The notes beneath the pieces were generated by a model, which worked only from the letters and a program-made list of their open reading frames with translations, was not told the DNA's origin and searched no databases. Below, piece after piece: positions 8,103 through 59,142 of a stretch of 64,000 bases of DNA (positions are counted from its first letter, which is position 1; each line of letters begins with the position of its first letter). The stretch is from Methanocaldococcus villosus KIN24-T80. GTDB lineage: Archaea > AGJL01 > Methanococci > Methanococcales > Methanocaldococcaceae. The DNA is taken from assembly GCF_000371805.1 (NCBI RefSeq), contig NZ_AQUK01000001.1, forward strand, positions 1,004,268 to 1,068,267, in the 5' to 3' direction. Made by a program: the position numbers and the translations under genes.

Positions 8103-8927
8103 TTATTTATTTTCAACAATTTCAACAATTTTATTAACAATCTCTTTAAATGCTTCTCCAGCCCTACAATCAATTAATACCATAGGCTTACCCTTCTCTT
8201 GAGCTTCTCTTGCTTTGGCATCTAATGGTATTCTTCCAAGAAATCTTAATCCTAACTCTTTAGCTATTTTTTCACCAGCTCCCTTACCAAATATATCTAT
8301 CTCTTTATTGCAGTATGGACAGACAAATCCACTCATATTCTCAATTATCCCAATTATTGGAATATTTAACATTTTACACATAGATATGGATTTTTTCACA
8401 TCTAATAAAGAAATCTCATCTGGTGTTGTAACAATTATAGCTCCATCTATGTTAGGAATACTCTGCATAATTGTTAACTGAACATCTCCTGTTCCTGGTG
8501 GTGTATCAATTAGCAAATAATCTAATTCACCCCATGCAACATCTGCTAAAAACTGTCTTATAGCCCCACTAACTCTTGGACCTCTCCATATAACAGGTGT
8601 AGCTTCATCAGGTAGAAGATAGCTTATAGATATTGTTTTTATTCCACTGACTTCTATTGGTAATATTGCATCCCCAGCAACCATTGGTTCTCCATTAGCT
8701 CCAAGTATTTTTGGAATATTTGGTCCATGAATATCTCCATCTAACACTCCAACCTTTTTATTTAATAAACTTAAACCAACAGCTAAATTTGCTGTTACTG
8801 TTGATTTCCCAACACCTCCTTTTCCACTTAATATAGCTATTTTATGTTTTATTTTACTCATTCTTTCTCTAATTTTTGCATTTTGCTGTTCCAGAAGTTT
8901 TTTTGCATCTTTTCTGTCACATTCCAA
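8103..8927 (-). CDS. Iron-sulfur cluster carrier ATPase, ApbC/Mrp/Nbp35 family
   Basis: 274 residues. The deviant Walker A SGKGGVGKST spans residues 34-43. Walker B is the LIDTPPGTGD segment, and the cluster-bridging CPYC pair lies near residue 200 after ENMSGFV. These proteins hold a 4Fe-4S cluster between two subunits and pass it to apo-proteins; methanogens, with many Fe-S enzymes, keep at least one copy. The start appears to be a TTG at 8927, four bases after GGGTGG. The gene lies 19 bp upstream of hcgA on the same strand, so it may be cotranscribed and supply clusters to HcgA, though that is inference. Members are also annotated mrp or minD-like. Confidence 0.93.
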   Translation of the reverse strand: MECDRKDAKKLLEQQNAKIRERMSKIKHKIAILSGKGGVGKSTVTANLAVGLSLLNKKVGVLDGDIHGPNIPKILGANGEPMVAGDAILPIEVSGIKTISISYLLPDEATPVIWRGPRVSGAIRQFLADVAWGELDYLLIDTPPGTGDVQLTIMQSIPNIDGAIIVTTPDEISLLDVKKSISMCKMLNIPIIGIIENMSGFVCPYCNKEIDIFGKGAGEKIAKELGLRFLGRIPLDAKAREAQEKGKPMVLIDCRAGEAFKEIVNKIVEIVENK

Positions 8928-8997
8928 TGTACCACCCTTTTAAATATTATTATTTTTTAAATATTATTTTTAATATTTAATATCTTTGGTGATTATT

Positions 8998-10095
8998 ATG
9001 GATTACGGCACTACAAAATATATTATTTATGCTGAACTAATTGCTGATGGTTATGTAGAAAAAAATGACATTATTGGAGCTATATTTGGACAAACAGAAG
9101 GATTATTGGGAGAAGAATTTGACTTAAGAGAGCTACAGAAAAGTGGAAGGATTGGAAGGATAGAGGTTGAATTAACAAATATAAATGGAAAATCAATAGC
9201 AAAACTAACCATTCCATCAAGTTTGGATAGAGTTGAGACATCTATTTTAGCTGCAGCATTGGAAACAGTTGATAGAGTAGGCCCATGTATGGCAAGTTTA
9301 AAAGTTGTAAAGATTGAAGATATTAGGATTAAGAAAAGAGAATATATCATAGATAGAGCAAAAGAGATACTTAAAGAAATGATGAGTAATGTGGATATAA
9401 ATAGAATAATAGAGGAGGTGAAAGAGAGTGTAAGGATGAGTGAGATTATTGAATATGGAGAAGATAAACTTCCTGCAGGGCCTGATATAGATAAATCTGA
9501 TGAGATAATAATAGTTGAAGGAAAAGCTGATGTTTTAAATCTTTTAAGATATGGAATAAGAAATGCTATAGCAGTTGAAGGAGCTTCAGTACCAAAAACT
9601 ATTATAGAATTGAGTAAAAAGAAAATAACAACAGCATTTACAGATGGGGATAGAGGAGGGGAGCTAATTTTAAAAGAGCTCTTACAGTCATGTGATATTG
9701 ACTATATAGCAAGAGCTCCTCTTGGTAGAGAGGTAGAAGAGTTAACTAAGAAGGAGATAATAAAATGTTTGAAAAGTAGAATACCTGTAAATAGTGAAGT
9801 TAAAAGTATAGAAGTTGAAAGTTTATCGAATAATGATTATAATAATTATGCTAATAAACTACTAAGTTTGAAAGATGATGAGGTTATAATTATTATTAAT
9901 GGTGAGGAGAAGAAAATAAAGATTAATGAATTATCAAACCTTGATAACATTGATACACTTCTAATAAAAACAATTGATCAAAAAACATTAGATAATATTT
10001 ATAATAAAATTAACAACATTATTTGTTTAAATAAAAAAATTGTAAAAAAACCATCAAATGTTTCCATTATGAGTATTAGGGGCTTGACTCTTTAA
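8998..10095 (+). CDS. dnaG: Archaeal DnaG primase-like protein (exosome-associated)
   Basis: 365 residues from the ATG at 8998, which follows GGTGA by five bases; an upstream TTG at 8986 is rejected because it precedes that site. The TOPRIM domain is at about residues 168-250: the glutamate in [17 protein letters not shown] and the acidic pair in FTDGDRGG are both present. Archaeal DnaG is smaller than the bacterial primase and lacks its zinc domain. It has weak primase activity in vitro and is a stable subunit of the archaeal exosome, binding poly(A)-rich RNA. The C-terminus is Asn/Ile/Lys-rich. Its 3' end overlaps the convergent hydrogenase gene by 20 bp. Confidence 0.93.
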
Positions 10096-11188
10096 TTACT
10101 ATCATTCTATCAGTACATGTAAAACATGGATCACAACTCACTATTATAAGCTCTGCATCAGAAACATTATGTCCAGGTAAAATAGCCTCCATACAGGCTA
10201 AATTTGTAGCTGTTGGAGTTCTAACTTTTACATGTTTCACTCTTAAATTCTCATCTAATCCATAACTGTAATACACCTGACCTCTCTGTGCCTCATTATA
10301 TACATCTATAGGATCAAAAGGCTTTAGCTCATAGTTTGGATTATATATTTTTTTATCTAAATTTGGCAAATCTTTTAAAGCCTGTCTTATAATTTTTAAA
10401 CTTTCAAAACATTCATAAAACCTCACAGCCAATCTTGCATAAACATCTCCTTCATCAAATAACACTTCATCAAATTCAAACCTATCATACAATGACACTT
10501 TAAGTAGCTTCCTCATATCACTTCTTATCCCTGAACCTCTTGCTGTTGGTCCTGTAGCATGGAATTTTTTTGCAGTTTCCTTATCTAAATATCCAACTTC
10601 TTTGATTCTTGCTAATATCATGGGATCATTGAAGGTTCTTTTTAACAGTTTCTTTAAATCTTCTTCAAATTTTTCTAATCTTTCTAATATAGAAGGAATC
10701 TTGTTTTCTTGAATATTACATCTAGGCCTAACTCCTCCAATTATAGGGCAAGAGTATTGTACCCTACCTCCTGTTATTTCTTGAAGTATTTTTAAAATAG
10801 GTTCTCTAACCATAAAAGCTCTATATGCCATAGTTTCAAAGCCAAGAACCTCATATATATGCCCAAATAATAGTGTATGTGAATGTAACCTCTCAAGCTC
10901 CTCTACAATTATCCTTATATACTCAGCCCTTTCTGGCACTTCTATATCACAGCCTTTTTCAACAACCATAACATTTGTCCAAACATGTATATGTGAGCAT
11001 ATTCCACATATTTTTTCTGATAGTATAGATATTTTCTCTGGAGGTAGTCCTTCCATTATTAACTCTATTCCTCTATAATTAACACCTATTGTTATTTCTG
11101 CATCTTTTATAATTTCATCTTCTACAACTAGCCTTAATCTGTGTGGTTCAAGCATAGCTGAATGTATAGGCCCAATAGCAATTTCCAT
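10076..11188 (-). CDS. ehbN: Energy-converting NiFe hydrogenase large subunit, probably EhbN
   Basis: About 370 residues. The two nickel-binding cysteine pairs of group 4 hydrogenases are complete: KICGICSH near residue 60 and DPCFTC near the C-terminus. The protein ends shortly after the second pair, without the long processed tail of many other NiFe large subunits. Ehb couples the sodium or proton gradient to ferredoxin reduction for carbon assimilation. I favour EhbN over EhaO because the gene stands alone; in Methanocaldococcus the ehb genes are scattered, whereas ehaO sits in a long operon. The start is taken at the ATG at 11188 after GTGATT; an upstream in-frame start would add seven residues. 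Assigning Ehb versus Eha needs a tree. Confidence 0.75.
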
Positions 11189-11271
11189 GGTAATCACAAA
11201 ATTTATCATTATTAATAATGATAAAACTTTTTAATAGTATTTAAAAATTACTTTGAAAAAAATAAAAATAA

Positions 11272-11655
11272 TTATTCTTTACTTTCCAATCCTAAAATTT
11301 CTGGGATTGGTTTCTCTCCATACTCAATAACTTTACAGTTTATTTGAACAATATCAGGAGCTATTGTGTTACCTCTCACTGTTTTTCTTCTTCTTTCTCC
11401 TTTTCTCTTTGGCCAAAATCCTGGAGGACCTGAAAGTAGAACTCTAACTTTTCCACTACCATGTATATCTGGTCTCATTGGGAAACCACTATCATCAGTT
11501 CCTCCAGTAATCTGTAATTTATAACCATTTAATCCAATAATAGAGCCATCAAAAATATCTCCAATCTTCTTACCTACTAAAGGTGTATTGTCAGCCTCTA
11601 TTTGATAGCATCTACCAGTTTTGGGATCAGCTACAACAAACTTAGCTATTGGCAT
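11272..11655 (-). CDS. rps6e: 30S ribosomal protein S6e
   Basis: 127 residues starting [15 protein letters not shown] at the ATG at 11655, with GGTGA four bases upstream. It contains the S6e signature [13 protein letters not shown] and the basic stretch [13 protein letters not shown] that contacts 16S rRNA. The reading frame stays open upstream to 11793, but that part encodes no S6e sequence and lies in a GC-rich folded region, so the longer protein is rejected. Archaeal S6e lacks the phosphorylated C-terminal tail of the eukaryotic protein, and this one is the expected size. No other ribosomal protein genes flank it. Confidence 0.96.
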
Positions 11656-46214: not shown

Positions 46215-47648
46215 TTAATGTTTAAATTCATTATTAATTTTAAATCTTAAAGATAATTCCTCAGCTATTTTTGATGTCTCTTTTAGATCAATTATTATTT
46301 TTCTAAACTCTGATATTGTTGAGTTCAACTCCTCAGTTGAAGCTGTTAACTCTTCAGCAGTTGCAGCAAACTCTTCTGATATAGAAGCGATGTCTTGAAT
46401 ATGCCTTAAAGCTGTTTCAACGTTCTCTTTTGAAGTCTTAGCACTCTCTTGAATTCTAACTATAGTTTCATTAGCTTTATCGATAGCCTCTTTTATCTTT
46501 AAGAATGCATTATTAACTTCATCTATAACAATAACTCCTCTATCAACAGCCTCTTTTCCAGTTAAACCAAGATCAATAGTTTTCTCGATAGCTGATCTTA
46601 TCTCTTCTACAGTTTTATTTATATCATCAACAGACTTTCCTATCTCTTCAGCTAATCCTTTTATCTCACTAGCGACAACTGCGAAACCTCTTCCTGCCTC
46701 TCCAGCCCTTGCAGCTTCAATAGATGCGTTTAATGCTAATAATCCTGTTTGTTCAGCGATATCTTTAATTAAAGCTGTTATTTCATTTATCTTCTCACTC
46801 TTCTTACCAAGCTCCTCTAAAGCCTTTCCAAGCTCATCAATAATATTCGCTATTCTCTGCATAGCCTCAATAGCATTTTCAACGTTCTTAACCCCTTCAT
46901 TAGCTTTCTCATCAACTACAGCCATCGCTTCTACTCCTTCCTCAGCAGCTTTAAGTGTATCTTCAGCCATCTTAGCTGTATCTTCAACCTCCTGAGTTAA
47001 ATCTTGCAACTTATTAGATTGATCTGTCGCTGCAACAGCAACTTGGTTAGCTGCATCGGCTATCTGTTCTGATGTTTCTTTTATTCTATTAACTTCTTCT
47101 TCCGCTCTATGGATTTCAGAATTTAATTTTTTAACGTCTTCTATTAAATCTCCTATCAATCTTGATAAACTATCCAATGCATTATTAATAACTACTCTTA
47201 ATTTTTCTAATTTATTTCCTTTTTGTTTTGAAATTCTTTCAGTTAAAGATCCGTTAGATATTGCTTTCATAACTCTATAAATCTCATTTAAAAAATTTTC
47301 AATCTCACTCATATTATTTTCATAAATCTTATCTTTTTTTATAATAAATTCTTTAATATTATATAAGTTATAAATAATATTGTCTAAAATATCATTACTT
47401 TTTTTAAATTTAATTTCAATATTTACATTCCCCCTTGATATTTCATTTGATATCTTCTCAATATACAATAACTTAGTGATTAACAATTTTTTAATAATTA
47501 TAAAACAGAATATACCAAAAATAATTGAAACAGTATTTAAAAATATAATATCACTAATGGCCTTACTTATAAATATAGAAAATATTAAAACTATAACTAT
47601 ATAACCTACAATGGGCATTGATAATATTACCCTACTATCTATATTCAT
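46215..47648 (-). CDS. Methyl-accepting chemotaxis transducer without extracellular domain
   Basis: 477 residues. Two adjacent membrane helices at about 8-30 and 35-55 leave almost no external loop, so it senses a cytoplasmic or membrane signal. A HAMP-like region follows, and the coiled-coil signalling domain (about 185-460) carries the hairpin tip [24 protein letters not shown], which contacts CheA and CheW. Codons for about 250 residues of this domain are shared almost letter for letter with the transducer at 55796. The start ATG at 47648 follows GGTGATG. It converges with valS and diverges from the first coiled-coil gene. Confidence 0.94.
46327..47081 (-). repeat. 755-bp near-identical tract, copy 1 (MCP signalling domain)
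   Basis: This tract inside the first transducer matches 55890-56644 in the third transducer over its full 755 bases in the same orientation. By eye I found one difference: CAGCAACTT near 47037 against CAGCTACTT in the other copy. Similarity drops abruptly at both ends. The encoded signalling domains are identical. Confidence 0.9.
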
Positions 47649-47729: not shown

Positions 47730-48251
47730 ATGAAAAATGATATTCCATTAAACTTAAGTAATTCCATAAACTATTTAATAAATAGTGTGAAAGAATTTAG
47801 GAAAGGTAATGAAGAAATGCTATCTCTTATAAAACAGCTTTCAAATGTTTTAGATAATGTAGAAAAGACATTAAATATTATAGAAGATAAACTTTTAATA
47901 ATAATTGAAAGACAAAAAAGTGGTAAAGAAATAAATCATTATGTTTTGGAAAAGTTTGTTGAAAATATAGAAAATCTTTCTCATGTTTTAGAAAATGTTG
48001 ATAAGATTAGTAGAAGTTTAAACTTAGAAATAGAAAAGCATGAGTCTTCTATAAATAATTTAGAGGATACTATAGAAAAGCTGAAAGATATTGATGCTAA
48101 AATTTCAAAAAATGTAGAGTTAGAATTAAAGAGAATTCATGAAGTTATTGATACAAATAGAAGTGAGCTAAAATATATTAGTGATAGATGTGATGCTTTA
48201 AATGAAAGGTTAAAAGATCTCTTACAGGAGATAGATAGTTTAATAAGCTAA
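47730..48251 (+). CDS. Uncharacterised coiled-coil protein of the chemotaxis cluster
   Basis: 173 residues, almost entirely heptad-patterned helix with no membrane segment, cysteine motif or known domain. The N-terminus (NLSNSINYLINSVKEFRKG) precedes a long coiled coil (about 25-170). It lies between the divergent transducer and the che genes, in the same direction as cheW, and has a GAGGTGTAATA ribosome-binding site. It may be a structural or adaptor part of the signalling array; homology to archaellum accessory proteins such as ArlC cannot be excluded by eye. No function is assigned. Confidence 0.75.
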   Translation: MKNDIPLNLSNSINYLINSVKEFRKGNEEMLSLIKQLSNVLDNVEKTLNIIEDKLLIIIERQKSGKEINHYVLEKFVENIENLSHVLENVDKISRSLNLEIEKHESSINNLEDTIEKLKDIDAKISKNVELELKRIHEVIDTNRSELKYISDRCDALNERLKDLLQEIDSLIS

Positions 48252-48378: not shown

Positions 48379-49068
48379 ATGGGTGATAATGATTTAATTA
48401 ATAGAATAAAACACTTAGAAAATCTTGCTATGAATTTATCTAAGAAACTAAATTCTAATAGCAATGAAGAGAAAGATGAAGCTAAAGAAGAAAAAAAAGA
48501 AAATAGCAATGAAGATAAAATTAAAGAACTTAGAGAAAAATTAGATAGCTTAAAATCTGAGTGTGCTAGTGGGAAGATATATGAGAGATTGGAAGTTATT
48601 TTAAAGAAGTTAGATGAAGGAATGTCAATAATAAAGAATTTAGATGAACAATTGAAAGAGCTTTCTAAGAAAATAGAAGGTATCAAACCACAAGAGATTG
48701 GAGAAGATACAATAAATAAAATTACTGAAAGGGTCAAAGAAATTAATGAATCTACAAAATCAGAAATTATTGAAAAGTTAAATAATATTGAAAAAGCTTA
48801 TTTTGGATGTACAACTAAATTGGATGATATTATTGATAAATTAAACAATATTCTTGATAAGATACAAGCTATTTTAGAATCTGGAGGGGTTAAAGTAGTG
48901 GATATTATCAATTTAATAAAAGAGATTCACAGTGGAATATCTACTGTAAAAGAGCTAATTTTAAAATCTAAGGAAGAAGAAATAATTAAAGCTATTGAAA
49001 TAGTTGATAATTTGAATAATAAAATTGATAATTATATAGATGAAATAAAAAAAGAGATAGAGAATTAA
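48379..49068 (+). CDS. Uncharacterised coiled-coil protein with charged linker, chemotaxis cluster
   Basis: 229 residues. A short N-terminal helix (LINRIKHLENLAMNLSKKL) is followed by a lysine/glutamate-rich stretch (about 28-50) like the linkers of CheA downstream, and then a coiled coil to the end. Two isolated cysteines are present (in KSECASG and YFGCTTK). No known domain is recognised. GGGGTGTT precedes the ATG at 48379; the gap of about 130 bases before it is AT-rich and may hold a promoter. CheW starts 60 bases later, so it is probably expressed with the che genes. Confidence 0.75.
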   Translation: MGDNDLINRIKHLENLAMNLSKKLNSNSNEEKDEAKEEKKENSNEDKIKELREKLDSLKSECASGKIYERLEVILKKLDEGMSIIKNLDEQLKELSKKIEGIKPQEIGEDTINKITERVKEINESTKSEIIEKLNNIEKAYFGCTTKLDDIIDKLNNILDKIQAILESGGVKVVDIINLIKEIHSGISTVKELILKSKEEEIIKAIEIVDNLNNKIDNYIDEIKKEIEN

Positions 49069-49128: not shown

Positions 49129-49587
49129 ATGGGTAATGAAAATGATGTTATTAAAATTGTTGTGTTTAGATTGGGAAAAAATGAATATGGGCTAAAGGTT
49201 GATGAAGTTAGAGAAGTTTTAAAGCTAAAAAAATCAGATATAACTCCTTTGCCAAATGCTCCTAGTTATGTAGTAGGAGTTACAAATATTAGAGGGGAAA
49301 TAACACCAATAATAAATTTAAAAGAAGTTTTGGGAATATATGAAGAAGTTGAGAATGGAAAAAAAGATGAAAAATTGGTTATGGTAATTGAGATTGATCA
49401 GCAAACTTTTGGTATTTTGGTTGATGGTGTTAATGATGTTATGCAAATCACTTCAGACATGATCACTCCTGTTTCAGCAATAAAAAAATCAACATTAGGC
49501 GGGGATTACGTAGAGGGGATAGTTAAAATAGAAAATAGGTTAATAATTTTATTAAACATCTCTAATTTGTTGAACTTAAATCAATAA
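49129..49587 (+). CDS. cheW: Chemotaxis adaptor CheW
   Basis: 152 residues with two SH3-like subdomains. Landmarks are VVFRLGKNEYGLKVDEVREV, LPNAPSYVVGVTNIRGEI and GILVDGVNDVMQI. CheW links transducers to CheA in the signalling array. It is the first of the conserved cheW-cheB-cheA-cheD run, with cheB beginning 17 bp after its stop. The length is typical. Confidence 0.96.
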   Translation: MGNENDVIKIVVFRLGKNEYGLKVDEVREVLKLKKSDITPLPNAPSYVVGVTNIRGEITPIINLKEVLGIYEEVENGKKDEKLVMVIEIDQQTFGILVDGVNDVMQITSDMITPVSAIKKSTLGGDYVEGIVKIENRLIILLNISNLLNLNQ

Positions 49588-49604: not shown

Positions 49605-50726
49605 ATCGCTGGTAAAAAAATTAGAGTTTTAGTTGTAGATGATTCTGCTTTTATGAGAAAAGTTCTTTCAGATATTCTTAATTCTGATCCAGAAATTGAA
49701 GTAGTTGGAACTGCTAAAGATGGAGTTGAAGCTGTAGAAATGACATTAAAACTAAAACCTGATGTTATTACAATGGATGTTGAAATGCCAAGAATGAATG
49801 GTTTGGAAGCTGTAAAAAAGATTATGGAACTTTGTCCAACACCTATAGTTATGGTCTCTGCCTTAACAACTGAAGGATCAAGAATAACATTTGAAGCTTT
49901 AGAGGCAGGAGCTGTTGATTTTATTCCAAAACCTTCTGGAAGTATATCTTTAGATATTAGGAAAATAGGGGATGAATTAATAAGAAAAGTAAAAGCTGCT
50001 GCAAAAGCTAAAGTAGTGAAAATCACACCTAAAGTAGCAAAACCTGAAGTAGAGAAGAAACCTGAAGCTAAATCAGAAGTAGTTTCTATTCCAAAAGCTC
50101 AAGAAGTTATTGAAGATTTACCATATCCTGATGATATACTAAAAACTATGTGTGTAATTATTGGCTCATCAACTGGAGGACCACCAGTAGTTACTGAAAT
50201 TATTTCAAAACTACCTAAAAGAATGCCCCCAATATTTGTAGTTCAACACATGCCTGAAGGTTTTACAAAATTGTTTGCTGATAGGATTGATAGAGTGTCA
50301 AAATTAAAAGCTAAAGAAGCTGAGCATGGAGAGAGAGTTCAGCCAGGTTATGTTTATGTAGCTCCTGGAGATTACCACATGTTATTAAAAAAGAGAGGTA
50401 GTGAAGTCTATATTATCTTAGATAACAAGATGCCAAAGGTTAATGGTACAAGGCCTGCTGTTGATGTGACTGCTGATTCAGTAGCTAATGTATATGGAGG
50501 TAGAGCTGTTGGTGTGATTTTAACAGGTATTGGAAGAGATGGAGCTTATGGATTTAAAAAGATAAAAGAAAAAGGAGGAAAAATAATAGCTCAAAATAAA
50601 GAAACATGTGTTGTCTTTGGTATGCCAAAAGCTGTTATTGAGATGGGGATAGCTGATGCAATATTACCTCCATCAGAGATACCCCCCACTATAGTTAAGT
50701 TCTGTAAGGAGATTTTAGGGGGATAA
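49605..50726 (+). CDS. cheB: Chemotaxis response regulator/methylesterase CheB, apparent AUC start codon
   Basis: About 373 residues from ATC at 49605. The receiver needs everything from KKIRVLVVDDSAFMRK onward (acid pocket D12-D13; phospho-acceptor D58 in TMDVEMPRMNG), yet the first in-frame ATG is at 49653, after the DD pair. The frame is closed by TGA at 49593 and holds no ATG, GTG or TTG before that. GAGGTGA (49594-49600) sits four bases before ATC, the normal spacing for ATG in this genome. The methylesterase half is intact: catalytic serine in IGSSTGGPPV, histidine in VVQHMPEGFT and aspartate in GIGRDGAYG. CheB demethylates transducers and adapts the array. A linker of about 40 residues joins the domains. 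Confidence 0.92.
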   Translation: MAGKKIRVLVVDDSAFMRKVLSDILNSDPEIEVVGTAKDGVEAVEMTLKLKPDVITMDVEMPRMNGLEAVKKIMELCPTPIVMVSALTTEGSRITFEALEAGAVDFIPKPSGSISLDIRKIGDELIRKVKAAAKAKVVKITPKVAKPEVEKKPEAKSEVVSIPKAQEVIEDLPYPDDILKTMCVIIGSSTGGPPVVTEIISKLPKRMPPIFVVQHMPEGFTKLFADRIDRVSKLKAKEAEHGERVQPGYVYVAPGDYHMLLKKRGSEVYIILDNKMPKVNGTRPAVDVTADSVANVYGGRAVGVILTGIGRDGAYGFKKIKEKGGKIIAQNKETCVVFGMPKAVIEMGIADAILPPSEIPPTIVKFCKEILGG

Positions 50727-50729
50727 TGT

Positions 50730-53597
50730 ATGGCAGAAATTATGGAAGAGTATTTAGATGTATTTGTTGAAGAAGCTGAAGAGCATATTCAAAAAATAAA
50801 TGAGTGTTTATTAGAATTAGAAAAAAATCCTGACAATTTAAATTTAGTTCATGAAATATTTAGATCAGCTCATACTATAAAAGGAGGAGCTAGAACTGTA
50901 GGTTTAACTCATATATCTGAACTTACTCACCACATGGAGGATATATTAGATCAAATAAGAAATGGTAGAATTCCTGTAACTTCTGAAATTGTAGATTTAC
51001 TTTTTGAATGTTTAGATGCTTTAGAAACAATGTTAGAAGAAGTGAAATCAGGAGAATATGAAACATCTATTGATTATAATGCAATTATTGAAAAAATTAA
51101 AAATATGAAAGATAAGTATTTAGGTGGAGCTCCTCCTACTGAAGAAGAAAAGAAAGAAGAGGCTAAAGAAGAGAAAAAAGAAAAAGAAGAAACTAAAGAG
51201 GAAAAGGAAGAAGTTAAAGAGGAAAAAAAGCCAGTAAAAAAAATTATTAAAATTAAATATAAATCTCCAAAGACAAAGGTTAAAGTAAAGAAGGTAGTTA
51301 AACAGCAAGTGGAAATAGAGCTTGAGGAGATTTCTGAGGATATATCTGAAATAATAGAAGGTATTAAAAAACCATTAGAAATCTTTTATTCACTTAATGA
51401 AAAACTAAACAATGAATATTTAAAATCTATTTTAGACACTATCAAAGAATATATTGATAAAGTTTCATCTAAAGAGATAAAAATTACAAAAAAGGTTTAT
51501 GACACCTTAAATTATATAACAAAAGTTTTAGAAGATGTTGCTAAATGTTTAGAAGAAGGTAGTGATTTAAAAGAAATAGTCAATTTAGATGAACTTAAAA
51601 ATAAAATAGAGGAGAGTTTTAAAACAAAAGAAATTAAGGAAATAGAAAGTGTTGAAGAAATTGAAGTTGAGTTAGATCATGAAAAATTTGATCTTAGTGA
51701 GTTTGCTAGTCTAATTAAAGAAAAATTAGAAAGTGGATACAAGCTCTATCATTTAAAGGCTAAAGTAGAAGATGCTTGTGAATTAAAATCAGCAAGATTG
51801 GCAATATTATTAACAAGATTAAAAAGTGTTGGGGAACTTTTATTATCAATACCAACAGAAGCTGAATTAAAAGAGAAAACTTTTGAAGAATTAGAAGCAA
51901 TGTTTTTATCTGAAAAAGATGTAGATGAAATAAAAAAATCATTAGAGATGCCTGAAATTGAATATATAGCTATATCCCCAGTAGATATTGAATTTGAAGA
52001 GGAGGTTATAGAAGCTAAAGAAGAAGAAATTGTTGAGGAAGAACCTGTCCCAGATGCTTATAAGATTGAAGTAATATTAGATGAAGAATGTCTTTTAAGA
52101 GCTGTTAGGGCTTATATGGTAATAAAAGAGCTAAGAGAGTTAGGAGAGGTTGTTAAAACTAATCCTCCATTAGAGAGTATAGAGAATGGGGAATTTAATG
52201 GATTAAGATTTACTATATATTTCAAACCTAAAGAAGGTGTTGAAGTAGATGATATAAAAGAAACTGTAATGGGAATTCCAGAAATAAAAGAAGTTAATGT
52301 TATCCCACCTGGTGAGCAAGTAGAGGAGAAAAAGGAAGAAGCTAAAGAAGAGAAAAAAGAAAAAGAAGAGACTAAAGAGGAGAAAAAAGAAGAGGCTAAA
52401 GAAAAACAAATACAACAAATACAAGCAGCTGCAAAAAAAGAAAGTAAGAAATCAACACAAACAATTAGAATTAACATTGAAAAGCTTGATAAGTTAATGA
52501 ACTTGGTTGGAGAACTTGTTATTACAAGAGCTAATTTTGCTCAAATAGCAAACAAATATCAGATAAAAGAATTAAACAATGCTGTTAATAGGCTGAGTAT
52601 GTTAATTAATGAATTGCAAGAAGAAGTCATGGCAATGAGAATGGTTCCTGTGTCATACGTTTTTAACAGATTTCCTAGGATGGTTAGGGATCTTGCTAAA
52701 GCATTAAATAAAGAAGTTGAATTGATAATGGAAGGAACAGATATTGAGTTAGATAGAACAGTTTTAGATGAACTAGCAGAACCTCTAGTTCATTTAATTA
52801 GAAATGCAATAGACCATGGTATTGAACCTCCTGAAGAGAGAGAAAAATTAGGAAAACCAAGAAAAGGTAGATTAAGATTAGCAGCTATTAGAGAAAGAGA
52901 TCATGTAAATATTATAGTAGAAGATGATGGTAGGGGTATAGATCCAGAAAAAGTTAAGAAGAAAGCTATTGAAAGAGGATTAATTACTGAAGAAGAAGCA
53001 AAAAAGATGTCAGACCATGAGATTATTAATTTAATTTTCTTACCTGGTTTTAGTACTAAGGAGCAAGTGTCTGAGGTTTCTGGTAGAGGAGTGGGGATGG
53101 ATGTTGTTAAAACAAAGATAGAATCTTTAGGAGGTTCAGTTGTTGTATATTCTGAAAAGGGGAAAGGGACAAGAGTTGTTTTGAAATTACCATTAACAAT
53201 GGCTATAATTACAGCATTATTAATGAAACTTTCTGACCAAGTTTATGCTATCCCTATAACAAGTGTTTTAGATGTTACAAGAATTGAAAAATCTGAAGTA
53301 AAAAATATTGAAGGAACTAATGCTATTATATATAGAGATGAAATAATTCCTGTGATATGGTTAAAAGATTTCTTAGGATTCTCTCACCTACCTGATCCAC
53401 CAGGGGATGAGCTAGTTATAGTTGTTATTGAAAGAAGTAATGGGAAGTTAGGGGTAGTGGTTGATGATGTTATAGGTAGGGAAGACATTGTTGTAAAAAC
53501 ACTTACTGGCATGCTTAAAAACATTCCTGGGCTTGCGGGAGCTACTATTTTAGGAGATGGTAGGGTAGCTCTGATATTAGATTTAAGCAATGCATAA
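50730..53597 (+). CDS. cheA: Chemotaxis histidine kinase CheA, extra-long form
   Basis: 955 residues against about 650 in E. coli. The Hpt domain has H48 in RSAHTIKGGA. The kinase core has the P3 dimer helices from about 575 (LDKLMNLVGELVITRA), the N box HLIRNAIDHGIE, the G1 box DDGRGIDP and G2 GRGVGMDVV. The C-terminus is the CheW-like P5 domain. Between Hpt and P3 lie some 440 residues: two Lys/Glu-rich linkers encoded near 51136-51230 and 52322-52410, and two related alpha/beta modules near residues 310-400 and 445-530 that look like P2 response-regulator-binding domains. The gene lies 3 bp after cheB. Confidence 0.95.
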   Translation: MAEIMEEYLDVFVEEAEEHIQKINECLLELEKNPDNLNLVHEIFRSAHTIKGGARTVGLTHISELTHHMEDILDQIRNGRIPVTSEIVDLLFECLDALETMLEEVKSGEYETSIDYNAIIEKIKNMKDKYLGGAPPTEEEKKEEAKEEKKEKEETKEEKEEVKEEKKPVKKIIKIKYKSPKTKVKVKKVVKQQVEIELEEISEDISEIIEGIKKPLEIFYSLNEKLNNEYLKSILDTIKEYIDKVSSKEIKITKKVYDTLNYITKVLEDVAKCLEEGSDLKEIVNLDELKNKIEESFKTKEIKEIESVEEIEVELDHEKFDLSEFASLIKEKLESGYKLYHLKAKVEDACELKSARLAILLTRLKSVGELLLSIPTEAELKEKTFEELEAMFLSEKDVDEIKKSLEMPEIEYIAISPVDIEFEEEVIEAKEEEIVEEEPVPDAYKIEVILDEECLLRAVRAYMVIKELRELGEVVKTNPPLESIENGEFNGLRFTIYFKPKEGVEVDDIKETVMGIPEIKEVNVIPPGEQVEEKKEEAKEEKKEKEETKEEKKEEAKEKQIQQIQAAAKKESKKSTQTIRINIEKLDKLMNLVGELVITRANFAQIANKYQIKELNNAVNRLSMLINELQEEVMAMRMVPVSYVFNRFPRMVRDLAKALNKEVELIMEGTDIELDRTVLDELAEPLVHLIRNAIDHGIEPPEEREKLGKPRKGRLRLAAIRERDHVNIIVEDDGRGIDPEKVKKKAIERGLITEEEAKKMSDHEIINLIFLPGFSTKEQVSEVSGRGVGMDVVKTKIESLGGSVVVYSEKGKGTRVVLKLPLTMAIITALLMKLSDQVYAIPITSVLDVTRIEKSEVKNIEGTNAIIYRDEIIPVIWLKDFLGFSHLPDPPGDELVIVVIERSNGKLGVVVDDVIGREDIVVKTLTGMLKNIPGLAGATILGDGRVALILDLSNA

Positions 53598-53621: not shown

Positions 53622-54086
53622 ATGGTTATAAGGGTTAGGATAGGGGGGTTGGAAGTGGCGAGGTCTCCTGAAGTATTAGAAACACTTTTGGGTTCATGTG
53701 TAGCTATTATGCTATATGATAAAGGTAAAAAGATTGGAGGAATGGCACATTCTGTTTTACCTGAAGCTAAAAATGAAAAAGTTACTGATCCTGGAAAATA
53801 TGTAAATACGGCAATCCCCGCATTAATTACAAAACTAGCTGTTAATGGGGCTAGAACTAATAAGCTAATAGCTAAGCTTGCTGGTGGAGCTAATATGTTT
53901 AAAACATCAAAAAATTCTATAAATGTTGGAGAAAAAAATGTAGAAACTGCAAAAAGGCTGTTAAAACAATATAACATTCCATTAGTAGGTGAAGATACAG
54001 GAGGAAATAGAAGTAGAATTGTTAGATTTTACTTAAAAACAGGTGATGTTGAAGTTAGAAAAGGTGGGGAAACTATTATTATTTAA
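53622..54086 (+). CDS. cheD: Chemoreceptor glutamine deamidase CheD
   Basis: 154 residues. The catalytic cysteine ([12 protein letters not shown], about C27) and histidine (GGMAHSVLP, about H44) are in place. CheD deamidates glutamines on transducers and, where CheC exists, partners it; no cheC, cheR, cheY or cheF is in this window. GGGGATTT precedes the ATG. It converges with the rhodanese-transducer gene, overlapping by 4 bp. Confidence 0.95.
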
Positions 54087-55777
54087 CTTTCTATAGGATA
54101 TCCTTTCTCTTTCCAAGCTTTTATTCCTCCTTCCATATTATAAACATCATATCCTTCCTTCTTTAATAACCAATAAGCTGAAGGACTAGTGAATCCCATG
54201 TTACAATAAACAACTATTTTTTTATCTTTTGGAATTTTATCTAAATTATTCTTTAATTCATTTATTGGGATATAAATAGAGTTTGGAATTTTCCCTAAAT
54301 ACTTATCTCTGGGAACCACATATATGAATAGATAATCTTTATTATTAATAAGCTCTTTAGCCTCATCCACAGATATATTTCTTGTTGTTTTTATTCTCAT
54401 TAAATTGTCTCTAACAGATCTTGAAACATTTTCTAATTTTATTATAACTTCCTCTATTTCTTTAAGAGCTTTTTTCTCTTCCTCTGCATTAGCTGATAAC
54501 TCTTCAGCAGTTGCAGCAAACTCTTCTGATATTGATGCAACCTCCTGCACTTCTTTTAAAGCTTTTTCCATATTTCTTATAGTTTTTCCTGCTGATTCTT
54601 TGATTTCTTCTATTTTTTCTTTAGTTTCATCTATTGTATTTTTTATTTCTAAGAATTTATCATTAACCTCATTTACAACATTAACTCCACTGTCTACTTC
54701 TTTTTTACCTATATTACTTAAATTTACAGTTTTCTCTATTTGTTCAAATATCTCTTCAATAGTTTTATTAACATCATCAACAGACTTTCCTATCTCTTCA
54801 GCTAATCCTTTTATCTCACTAGCGACAACAGTAAAGCCTCTTCCTGCCTCTCCAGCTCTTGCAGCTTCAATAGATGCGTTTAATGCTAATAATCCTGTTT
54901 GCTTGGCAATATCTTTAATTAATGTTGTAATTTCAGTAATTTTCTTAGATTTTTCTCCAAGTTCTTCAATTGATTTACTTAAATCATCAATAACATCTGA
55001 TATCTTTTTCATAGAATTTACAGCATTTTCTACTTTAACCATACCTTCATCTGCTTTTTCACTTGCTCTTATTGCTATCTCTACACCTTCTTTTGATAAG
55101 TTTTCTGTTTTTATGGCTAATTTATCTGTTTCTTCAACATCACTTGCCACTTCTTGAAGCTTACTTGACTGAGAAGTAGCTGCTTCAGCTACTTGCTGTG
55201 AAGCATCAACAATTTGATCTATAGAATCTTTAGCTTTTTTTGTTTCATCTTTTAAAATTACAATTTGATGATTAAGTTCAAGAACTTCTTTTCTTATGTT
55301 TTCAAGAACTTCAGCTAGTTTATCTAAAGCTCTATTAAATGTTTTTTGTAACAAGTTTCTTTTTCTGTTTTCATCTAATCTTACTGAAAAATCTCCTTCT
55401 TCTAACTTTTTTATAGCATATAATAACTCTTTTACTGTTTTAGAAATCTCTTGCCTTTCTTCTTTTAAGGCTTCTTCTTTTTTAATTATATTATTTAATA
55501 ACTCCACAACTCTTTTATGTAATATTAAACATGTTTTATTCCTTACTTTTATATCAATAATCTTCCTCTCTTTTTCAAATATATCAATTAACTTAACAAT
55601 TTTTTCAGCATCTCTCAATAAAAATAATCTTATACATAGTAATGAAACAAATGAAAAAATAAATACTGACAATATTGCTAACAGATCATTTATTTTTGAT
55701 AAAAAATAAATTAATAATCCAAATAAGAGGACTATTATAAGTATTCTATAATCATATTCTCTTAATTTCTTCAACAT
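54083..55777 (-). CDS. Methyl-accepting chemotaxis transducer fused to a C-terminal rhodanese domain
   Basis: 564 residues. Two adjacent N-terminal membrane helices (about 9-27 and 31-50) leave no sizeable external domain. The signalling domain has the usual tip ([24 protein letters not shown]). From about residue 469 a complete rhodanese-like domain follows: [30 protein letters not shown] and C525 in [10 protein letters not shown], ending [12 protein letters not shown]. The loop ends in Thr where sulfurtransferases often have Arg, and the Asp of the usual IDVR motif is Tyr. The rhodanese unit lies in the cytoplasm, so the protein may sense sulfane sulfur, sulfide-related or redox signals. 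This architecture is unusual. Confidence 0.92.
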
Positions 55778-55795: not shown

Positions 55796-57637
55796 TTAAA
55801 TTTTAAACTTATTAACGTATTCATTAACAGTTTCAGTAATTTTGGAGAATTTTTCAATACTTACATAGACCTCATTGATTATTCCATTTAACTCCTCAGT
55901 TGAAGCTGTTAACTCTTCAGCAGTTGCAGCAAACTCTTCTGATATAGAAGCGATGTCTTGAATATGCCTTAAAGCTGTTTCAACGTTCTCTTTTGAAGTC
56001 TTAGCACTCTCTTGAATTCTAACTATAGTTTCATTAGCTTTATCGATAGCCTCTTTTATCTTTAAGAATGCATTATTAACTTCATCTATAACAATAACTC
56101 CTCTATCAACAGCCTCTTTTCCAGTTAAACCAAGATCAATAGTTTTCTCGATAGCTGATCTTATCTCTTCTACAGTTTTATTTATATCATCAACAGACTT
56201 TCCTATCTCTTCAGCTAATCCTTTTATCTCACTAGCGACAACTGCGAAACCTCTTCCTGCCTCTCCAGCCCTTGCAGCTTCAATAGATGCGTTTAATGCT
56301 AATAATCCTGTTTGTTCAGCGATATCTTTAATTAAAGCTGTTATTTCATTTATCTTCTCACTCTTCTTACCAAGCTCCTCTAAAGCCTTTCCAAGCTCAT
56401 CAATAATATTCGCTATTCTCTGCATAGCCTCAATAGCATTTTCAACGTTCTTAACCCCTTCATTAGCTTTCTCATCAACTACAGCCATCGCTTCTACTCC
56501 TTCCTCAGCAGCTTTAAGTGTATCTTCAGCCATCTTAGCTGTATCTTCAACCTCCTGAGTTAAATCTTGCAACTTATTAGATTGATCTGTCGCTGCAACA
56601 GCTACTTGGTTAGCTGCATCGGCTATCTGTTCTGATGTTTCTTTAGCTCTTTCACCTATATCTTTTAATTTTTCAATCTCTTCATTCAACAATCTAACCT
56701 CATTTGCTAATTCTTTTATGGCTTCACTTAAACTTTCAATTACAGAGTTAATTAAGTTAGCTAATTTATTTAATCTCTCATCTTCCCATTTTGCTTTTAT
56801 TTTTACATTTAAATTACCTTCTTTTACTTTATCTAATATCTCTGACATATATCTTATAGCATTATCAAACATCTGTTTTTCTTTCATCTCTTTTTCTGCT
56901 TCAGCTTTTAAGTTATTAATTATTTCTTTAATTTTATTGAATATAACTCCAATTTCATCATTTCTGAATTTTATTTTTGGTTTAATATTATAGTTACCTT
57001 TAGCTATCTCTAAAACTACCCTATTCAACTCTTCCAAAGGTTTTATAATATGGTTCTTTACAACATAAAATGCTAACACTGAAATAATTATTGATAAAAT
57101 AATCATTGTTTCTAACATTAAATTTAATTCTTTAACTTTTTCATGACTATACTCTGTATATAATAACACTGCTTTATGCATTTCTGATAACAATTCCATA
57201 TTGTGGTTCTTAATATATTCTAAAGCCTTTTTAACTTCAGGATCTGAAGGATCCTTTTCATAAATTATCAATATATTTTTATAAAACTCACTCCACATAG
57301 ACTTTACTTTTAAAAGTTGTGCTTTAACAATAGGAGGAGCAGGAGTAATTCCTCTCTCTTCATTACCATTAATTAAATCATTTAAATTCTTATCAAACTC
57401 TTGTGCTGTTTTTATTAACTCTTTTTTCATTTCTAAATTACCTAAAGCTATCATAAAAGCTTCTTTAGACATTTTTTGAATTAACATTCTCTGTTTTCCT
57501 GCAATATTAATAATATTTGCATCATGCTCCATATCTTTTAATAATATAGTTGTATAAGCTGCACCAAATATAATACACATAACCAAGATAGAAACAATAC
57601 CTAACAGTTTAAATTTTATAGATAAATTTTTAAACAT
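55796..57637 (-). CDS. Methyl-accepting chemotaxis transducer with PilJ-type external sensor
   Basis: 613 residues from the ATG at 57637 after GGTGATTTAT. Membrane helices at about 9-31 and 172-192 enclose an external four-helix sensor whose start ([21 protein letters not shown]) matches the PilJ/NarX-type N-terminal domain. A HAMP domain follows (about 195-245) and then a second HAMP-like stretch. The signalling domain is the same in sequence as that of the transducer at 46215. The bounding membrane helices suggest it reads an extracellular small molecule. It ends 18 bp upstream of the rhodanese transducer gene on the same strand, so they may be cotranscribed. Confidence 0.94.
55890..56644 (-). 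repeat. 755-bp near-identical tract, copy 2 (MCP signalling domain)
   Basis: Counterpart of 46327-47081, same orientation and same length, with one base difference noted by eye. The intervening rhodanese transducer shares only short identical patches (54773-54829, and 54837-54901 with one mismatch), so the exchange mainly joined the outer two genes. Confidence 0.9.
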
Positions 57638-57731
57638 ATAAATCACCCCAAAAATTTTTAATGTCTAATCTATAATAACCTTAAAATCTATTAAATATTT
57701 TTTTATGTAGGTAATTTTGTAGATGATAATT

Positions 57732-58610
57732 ATGATATTCTCAAGATGGACACAGGAAAAAAGAAAATTAAATAGTTTAGATGAATTAAAAAAAGATATT
57801 TTAGAGCAATTTAAAGAAAACAATTTATTAGATGAAGAGATTATAGCTATGGTTAGTGGAGGGAAAGATAGCTCTCTATCTGTAGCTTTGGCTAAAGATT
57901 TAAATCTTAATATATCTTATATACTACACTTCTATCATAGGTGGAGTTGGGATGTTTCAAGAAAAATGGTTGAAAAGATTGGCAAAATTTACAACATACC
58001 TGTTGTATATATAGATATAACAAATGATTTATTAAAAAGAACAAAAAGAGCCAAAGGATCAAGTATTTGTAGGATTTGCAAAAATATAATGAAATGTAAA
58101 ACTGTAGATTTTGCTAAAGAACATGGAATAAAAATTATAATGACTGGAGATTCTTCTTTAGATAAAATAGTTGGAGCTGTGATGAATTATTTAAGAGAAA
58201 AATATGGAGAAGTAAAGTTTAATAAAATGGAATTAACAAAAGTGCCTGGAAGATATGGGTTATTTTTCTTTAGACCTTTAATAAGGTTAGCTTACAAAGA
58301 TATATTAAGGCTTTTAAATTACTATAATTTAAATATTGAGAGAGCTTATGAAGTTGGGGATAAGAAAGGATTTTGGAGAGAAGGATGTTGTTTGCAGTAT
58401 GTTGATGGAAATATAATATTAGAAAATAATGAAGAAATCTTTAATAAGTTATATAAATACAATAAATTAGCTACTAAAATAGCTAAAGAACACGGTTTTA
58501 GAGCTTCAATAACATACCCTTCAAAGAGAATATTAGTGGAGCCTAATAAAGAAGAGTATAGAGATATAATTAAAAAAGCTTTGAGGGATTTGGATGATGA
58601 AAGTTTATAA
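57732..58610 (+). CDS. PP-loop ATPase, possible tRNA-thiolation or sulfur-transfer enzyme
   Basis: About 292 residues. The PP-loop [11 protein letters not shown] (about 42-52) binds ATP for adenylation. [11 protein letters not shown] cluster near 115 and CC in REGCCLQY near 225 could hold a metal or Fe-S cluster or carry sulfur, as in TtuA/NcsA-like tRNA thiolases. It lacks the paired zinc fingers of full TtuA, so it may belong to another PP-loop branch. The start is uncertain: ATG at 57732 or 57723. It overlaps the next gene, encoding a membrane protein, by 17 bp. The substrate is unknown. Confidence 0.7.
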
Positions 58611-59142
58611 GATTTCTGGCAATAAAGCTATTATCTTATTTATAATTATAATATTATTTTTATTGATTCTTTTCCTTTTAGCCTTACCCATTATTATTTT
58701 TCTGTTTATTTTAATTTTAGGTTATATTTTCTTTAAATATAAATTTAAGGGTTTTTTAAAACATATATATTATAGACTTAGAAGAAAGAAAATAAAAATA
58801 ATTGATAACTCTAATAATGGGGAAATAAAGATAAACTTTAGAAAGAGTTTAGAAAATGTTGATGATGATACAAAAATGTTTATTAATTATTTAAAAAATA
58901 TTGGAGCTAAGGTTGATAAAAGATATGTTTATATTAATGGCTATAAAGCATACCCTATTTATAAAAGCTCTTATCCAGTTAATGAGATTATTACCCTAAA
59001 TTATCCTGAAGATGTAGAAGCAGTTATTCTTGGATTAAAAGGTTCTCCAGACAATCCAAAGTTTTTATTTTTAATTCCAAAAGAATTTCTAAAGAGAAGA
59101 ATGCATATTGATGAAATAAAAAGATTTATTTTAAATATTTAA
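58594..59142 (+). CDS. Uncharacterised membrane protein
   Basis: 182 residues. A very hydrophobic N-terminal region (about 12-50) forms two closely spaced helices or a hairpin. A basic stretch ([14 protein letters not shown]-like, about 55-70) faces the cytoplasm by the positive-inside rule. The C-terminal domain of about 110 residues is soluble, ending in [20 protein letters not shown], with no domain recognised. Translational overlap with the PP-loop ATPase suggests a joint function or only shared transcription. ATG codons at 58594 and 58597 are both possible starts. Confidence 0.7.

Follow-up and report, generated by a model that had tools for sequence, protein, structure and literature searches.

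In DcrH of Desulfovibrio vulgaris, a membrane methyl-accepting chemotaxis protein (MCP), the signalling domain is followed by a cytoplasmic C-terminal hemerythrin, for which a redox-type signal has been proposed (PMC13401364), and MCPs of the TlpD type receive C-terminal input from a CZB domain via one conserved reactive cysteine (PMC6715182). The receptor analyzed here is encoded in the window, i.e. the whole 64,000-nucleotide stretch of Methanocaldococcus villosus KIN24-T80 DNA that was studied, and carries at its C-terminus a rhodanese, a domain whose usual role is in handling sulfur atoms. It resembles DcrH in being a membrane MCP whose signalling domain is followed by a putative sensor domain in the cytoplasm, and TlpD in that input would come from a C-terminal domain through one conserved, presumably reactive, cysteine. 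It differs from DcrH, which combines an O2-binding diiron hemerythrin with a periplasmic domain, in having a rhodanese and no external domain, and from TlpD, a soluble protein with a zinc-cysteine switch, in its membrane anchor and rhodanese fold; neither CZB nor hemerythrin matched it at E <= 0.01 in Pfam. The logic of C-terminal input, proposed for DcrH and shown in part for TlpD, may by analogy extend to this protein. A survey of archaeal chemoreceptors (PMC9680633) names Cache, PAS, protoglobin, PilJ, HBM, SBP_bac, 4HB and unnamed N- or C-terminal domains; C-terminal sensor domains are thus already known as a class in archaeal MCPs, and rhodanese is not named in the survey's main text. The rhodanese domains of CoA-disulfide/persulfide reductases, a persulfide dioxygenase and lactamase fusions (3icr, 3nta, 6pfz, 3tp9, 5ve3) share with the window's protein the fold, the C-terminal position after an unrelated module and the loop cysteine. 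These proteins are, however, enzymes, and the relatives of this type collected here keep the DxR motif; in the window's protein the partner is a receptor and the motif is missing.

The elements of the rhodanese-MCP gene are the following.

54083..55777, minus strand: rhodanese-MCP, 564 aa in a single reading frame with an ATG start (reading of the open reading frame)
54083..54375, minus strand: rhodanese domain plus stop codon (Pfam, alignment and predicted structure)
54203..54205, minus strand: C525 codon, encoding the invariant cysteine of the loop (coordinates derived from the residue number)

Inspection of the open reading frame revealed GGGGAG a few nucleotides upstream of the start codon. 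The protein consists of two transmembrane helices within residues ~9-56, a juxtamembrane region (57-165), an MCP signalling domain (166-455), a linker (456-468) and the rhodanese (469-564). Pfam matched the MCPsignal family (PF00015) at residues 234-416 above its curated cut-off (E 7.1e-38) and the Rhodanese family (PF00581) at residues 469-558 over the entire profile (1-102 of 102; E 3.1e-17; 63.3 bits versus a curated cut-off of 22.2), and gave a sub-threshold HAMP match (17.8 bits versus a cut-off of 25 bits). The sequence-only reading of this DNA had described a full MCP with two membrane helices and the standard tip, continuing in frame into a complete rhodanese-like domain with C525 in the active-site loop. 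The two hydrophobic segments, the signalling-domain match, the conserved tip at 285-330 and the complete rhodanese profile within one frame bear this description out, and the interval to which it was assigned, 54083-54375, is exactly the rhodanese part of the gene. Alignment of the five rhodanese-MCPs identified in this work places two hydrophobic N-terminal segments, a few residues apart, within ~9-56 in every one of them, and comparison of these homologues revealed no external sensor domain between the two helices. Since so few residues separate the helices, practically the whole protein is expected to be cytoplasmic.

The distribution of the fusion was analyzed by searching 36 genomes of the order with the rhodanese part. 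The same fusion was found in five of the 14 Methanocaldococcus genomes, the window's included, and was absent from the 22 other genomes of the order. The other four proteins are 63-73% identical to the window's and are encoded by open frames of 567-578 aa. MCP genes scoring above the Pfam cut-off occur in seven genomes of the genus, five of which carry the fusion; one of the two MCP-bearing genomes without it is only 86% complete. In addition, one of these five proteins is present again in an independently named vent MAG record, Dive100_bin4.136 (L023). These data bear directly on the explanation that the junction is a misassembly or a chance joining of two genes, which the sequence-only reading had itself named as a possible refutation: because the same junction recurs in four other genomes and in the MAG record, the fusion can be put down neither to chance nor to an artefact of joining, and this explanation was rejected. 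A tree of signalling domains unites the five rhodanese-MCPs in one group, with support of 94/82 and recovery in 95% of bootstrap trees. The 15 further MCPs from the genus fall outside this group, and many of them cluster by genome. A single fusion event followed by inheritance would be the simplest history within this sample, and the rhodanese-MCP seems, from these sequences, to stand outside the homogenization that affects neighbouring MCPs. In other genomes of the order, too, pairs of MCPs have equal domain scores and MCPs group by genome; the rhodanese-MCP lies outside such a pattern. Short open reading frames (~253 aa) with a partial MCP signalling domain also occur in several genomes of the order (G000:C1:214212-214604 (L143), L144, L152 and L155).

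The sequence-only reading had also suggested a search for the MCP-rhodanese architecture in Archaea. A shallow search with a model of the whole fusion covered ~1,640 genomes of other phyla, reached via Methanoperedens, Alkalithermobacter, Thiotrichales, Methanobacteriaceae and Spirochaetales centre genomes and their phyla, and a match counted as a fusion if it spanned both the MCP and the rhodanese parts. In the larger runs, scoring was confined to the best 3-4 candidates of each genome, under strict cut-offs, and two runs returned no match. The architecture was hence recovered within the genus, and no other instance appeared among the matches listed for the ~1,640 genomes; as a shallow, thresholded negative this is weak evidence, compatible with independent fusions elsewhere. 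Scans of plasmids and viruses gave either no match or rhodaneses of the ordinary kind alone. Searches of the open literature met no description of a rhodanese joined to a chemoreceptor in the titles, abstracts and passages that they covered. As far as these sources go, the novelty lies in a known receptor class combined with a sensor domain not described there and altered at the hallmark DxR motif.

Rhodanese active-site loops fall into classes, with Cx4R/T typical of sulfurtransferases and the one-residue-longer Cx5R of Cdc25 phosphatases and the arsenate-reductase type, while the DxR motif is regarded as highly conserved but of unknown function (PMC10135228). In the window's protein the loop reads CNMGFT and in its four relatives CKLGFT, with the GFTSP stretch invariant, and C525 is the only cysteine common to all five proteins. 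No gap is needed to align this Cx4T loop with Cx4R/T loops, and it does not have the longer Cx5R form, so assignment to the Cdc25/arsenate-reductase type was rejected. A lack of conservation of the cysteine loop among relatives, part of the second refutation that the sequence-only reading had named, is contradicted by this invariance. What that reading had not noticed is that DxR, at the end of the first strand, is replaced in every fusion (YVV in the window's, NVV in the four relatives), which sets the fused domain apart from ordinary rhodaneses: D and R are both present in 77 of 77 non-fusion relatives, a collection gathered mainly with two peptide patterns, which therefore samples close relatives and not the rhodaneses as a whole. 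The only other rhodanese match in the genome, G000:C1:790062-790415 (L002), belongs to a 222-aa protein that reads as MnmH-like and keeps DVR; it adjoins a separate P-loop half, and the two look like a split tRNA selenouridine synthase. The AlphaFold model of the fused domain is a confident rhodanese fold (pLDDT 91.7), matching solved rhodaneses with TM up to 0.85; the nearest include a lactamase-rhodanese fusion, persulfide dioxygenase, the rhodanese domains of CoA-disulfide/persulfide reductases, and YgaP. The model of the full-length protein is poor (pLDDT 51), too low for dimer geometry.

Because DxR is missing, sulfurtransferase activity is not to be assumed, and its loss in all five fusions is what one would expect if the tail were a non-catalytic binding module that docks a sulfur-carrier protein, a desulfurase or a Che protein, or holds the dimer, with C525 not a redox switch. 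Inactive rhodaneses are indeed regarded as protein-interaction modules (PMC10135228), and the tail would lie near the methylation helices on which CheR, CheB and CheD act. Inactive rhodaneses are, however, defined by absence of the loop cysteine, whereas here the cysteine and GFTSP are invariant across divergent homologues, and we consider a pure binding role decidedly doubtful. A retained cysteine could also serve a different chemistry, C525 sensing an oxidant, O2-derived species, NO or a metal(loid) instead of sulfane sulfur, as the repellent redox sensor of a strict anaerobe. The structural neighbour YgaP is both S-nitrosylated and S-sulfhydrated according to PDB entry titles, TlpD senses oxidant by a conserved cysteine in an MCP C-terminal domain (PMC6715182), and C525, as sole conserved cysteine, would be sufficient for either sulfenylation or persulfidation. 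On the other hand, sulfur is the first candidate suggested by the Cx4T loop and by the closest relatives, many of which are persulfide reductases or persulfide dioxygenases; this leaves such a redox sensor unlikely, if a serious contender.

The conservation of the five homologues is uneven along the protein. Mean pairwise identity is 27% in the membrane part and 31% in the juxtamembrane region, and rises to 64-68% over the signalling part and to 70% over the rhodanese, in which 48 of 96 alignment columns are invariant; the hairpin tip at 285-330 reaches 87%. In the rhodanese, dN is 0.08-0.29 versus a dS of 0.9-2.4, the dS values being near saturation. Given 70% versus 27-31% identity, together with dN well below dS, selection keeps the rhodanese tail and not the membrane part. 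With purifying selection equal to that on the signalling domain, an inert remnant is unlikely. A conserved tail and a drifting membrane part would fit a receptor composed of an anchor plus C-terminal input.

The rhodanese-MCP sits inside the cheW-cheB-cheA-cheD cluster of the window, which comprises the following genes.

46215..47648, minus strand: third MCP of the cluster, 477 aa (Pfam)
49129..49587, plus strand: CheW (sequence reading and synteny)
49653..50726, plus strand: CheB (sequence reading and synteny)
50730..53597, plus strand: CheA, 955 aa (sequence reading and synteny)
53622..54086, plus strand: CheD (PF03975, 1.8e-32), convergent with the rhodanese-MCP gene and overlapping it by 4 nt
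55796..57646, minus strand: PilJ-type MCP, 616 aa, directly upstream of the rhodanese-MCP gene on the same strand with an 18-nt gap (Pfam)

The PilJ-type MCP and rhodanese-MCP genes are probably on one transcript. Elsewhere in the genome, Pfam matched CheR (PF01739, 4.5e-57) and, outside the window, archaellins; the Che/archaellum set is apparently complete, and the receptor is on these grounds taken to operate in an apparently complete system. The MCPs at 46215-47648 (minus strand) and 55796-57646 (minus strand) share an identical 253-residue stretch (756/759 nt) with different N-termini, a sequence pattern that we interpret as recent gene conversion. Two coiled-coil proteins at 47730-48251 and 48379-49068 (both plus strand) adjoin cheW, and the former matches FlaC_arch weakly; homologues of both occur in the relative L139 and of the first in L141, and they are candidate archaeal chemotaxis or archaellum accessory proteins. 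In L139, cheA consists of two open reading frames (8522-11453; 744 + 189 aa), owing to a frameshift, a split gene or a sequencing error.

The neighbours of the fusion gene itself vary: it lies next to cheD in two cases (the window and L139), next to a KaiC-like gene in two others (L138 and L141) and next to a hydrogenase-protease-like gene in L140 (names by sequence reading). Comparison of the five neighbourhoods revealed no sulfur-metabolism gene that consistently adjoins the rhodanese-MCP, which counts against a sulfur-sensor reading. In the window, a PP-loop ATPase and a small membrane protein (57723-59142, plus strand) adjoin the receptor genes, as they do in L138 and L139 and not in L140 and L141. 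The PP-loop protein (57723-58610) was tried as a conserved sulfur-gene partner and rejected on this distribution. In species that lack chemotaxis its gene presumably also neighbours serA, and the locus was accordingly read as an insertion site and not as a partner. The neighbourhoods are also relevant to the explanation that the tail has no input role and acts as a functional sulfurtransferase enzyme, which the fusion tethers to the receptor array. The loop cysteine and the fold are kept, as such an enzyme would require; no acceptor partner, however, adjoins the gene in all five genomes, DxR is lost, and multidomain relatives appear fused to enzymes, not receptors, which together make a tethered enzyme very improbable.

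We assign a probability of about 0.5 to the reading that the rhodanese is a cytoplasmic cysteine-based sensor at the receptor C-terminus, most likely for sulfane sulfur, with both ligand and sulfur chemistry presumed. The sequence-only reading had proposed a cytoplasmic sulfur/redox chemoreceptor; its general form is supported by a conserved cytoplasmic C-terminal domain, an invariant cysteine in a sulfurtransferase-type loop and an apparently complete Che/archaellum set, while the sulfur part stays conjectural. According to the sensor reading, the two N-terminal helices, predicted from sequence and with practically no external loop, would anchor the dimer expected for the family, and the helical hairpin tip would couple to CheA/CheW, as is known for the family, before the chain returns to its membrane-near end. 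Each chain would end there in a rhodanese. Its C525 may be modified reversibly by a small redox or sulfur species, the likeliest being sulfane sulfur in the form of a persulfide or polysulfide, which would give Cys-SSH. If this altered the loop, or the contact between the two rhodaneses of a dimer, the adjoining methylation helices could shift, and with them CheA activity; adaptation would be provided by CheR, CheB and CheD, the genes for which are present. Archaellum switching would in this way be biased by the sulfur or redox state within the cell. Against the sensor reading, the loss of DxR could mean that the domain no longer does rhodanese chemistry. The fuller proposal, of a lineage-specific Methanocaldococcus chemoreceptor in which a DxR-altered rhodanese has been turned into a cytoplasmic sulfane-sulfur sensor steering swimming, is tentative and falls somewhat short of an even chance.

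If true, the rhodanese-MCP would add a new sensor type to the chemoreceptor repertoire and would be a candidate means by which methanogens at vents find their position in gradients of sulfide and sulfur. The rhodanese-MCPs also constitute a natural test of the role of DxR, having kept the cysteine and the fold and lost the motif while the job of the domain apparently changed from enzyme to receptor. Archaea with a rhodanese-tailed receptor may therefore steer by their intracellular sulfur or redox state.
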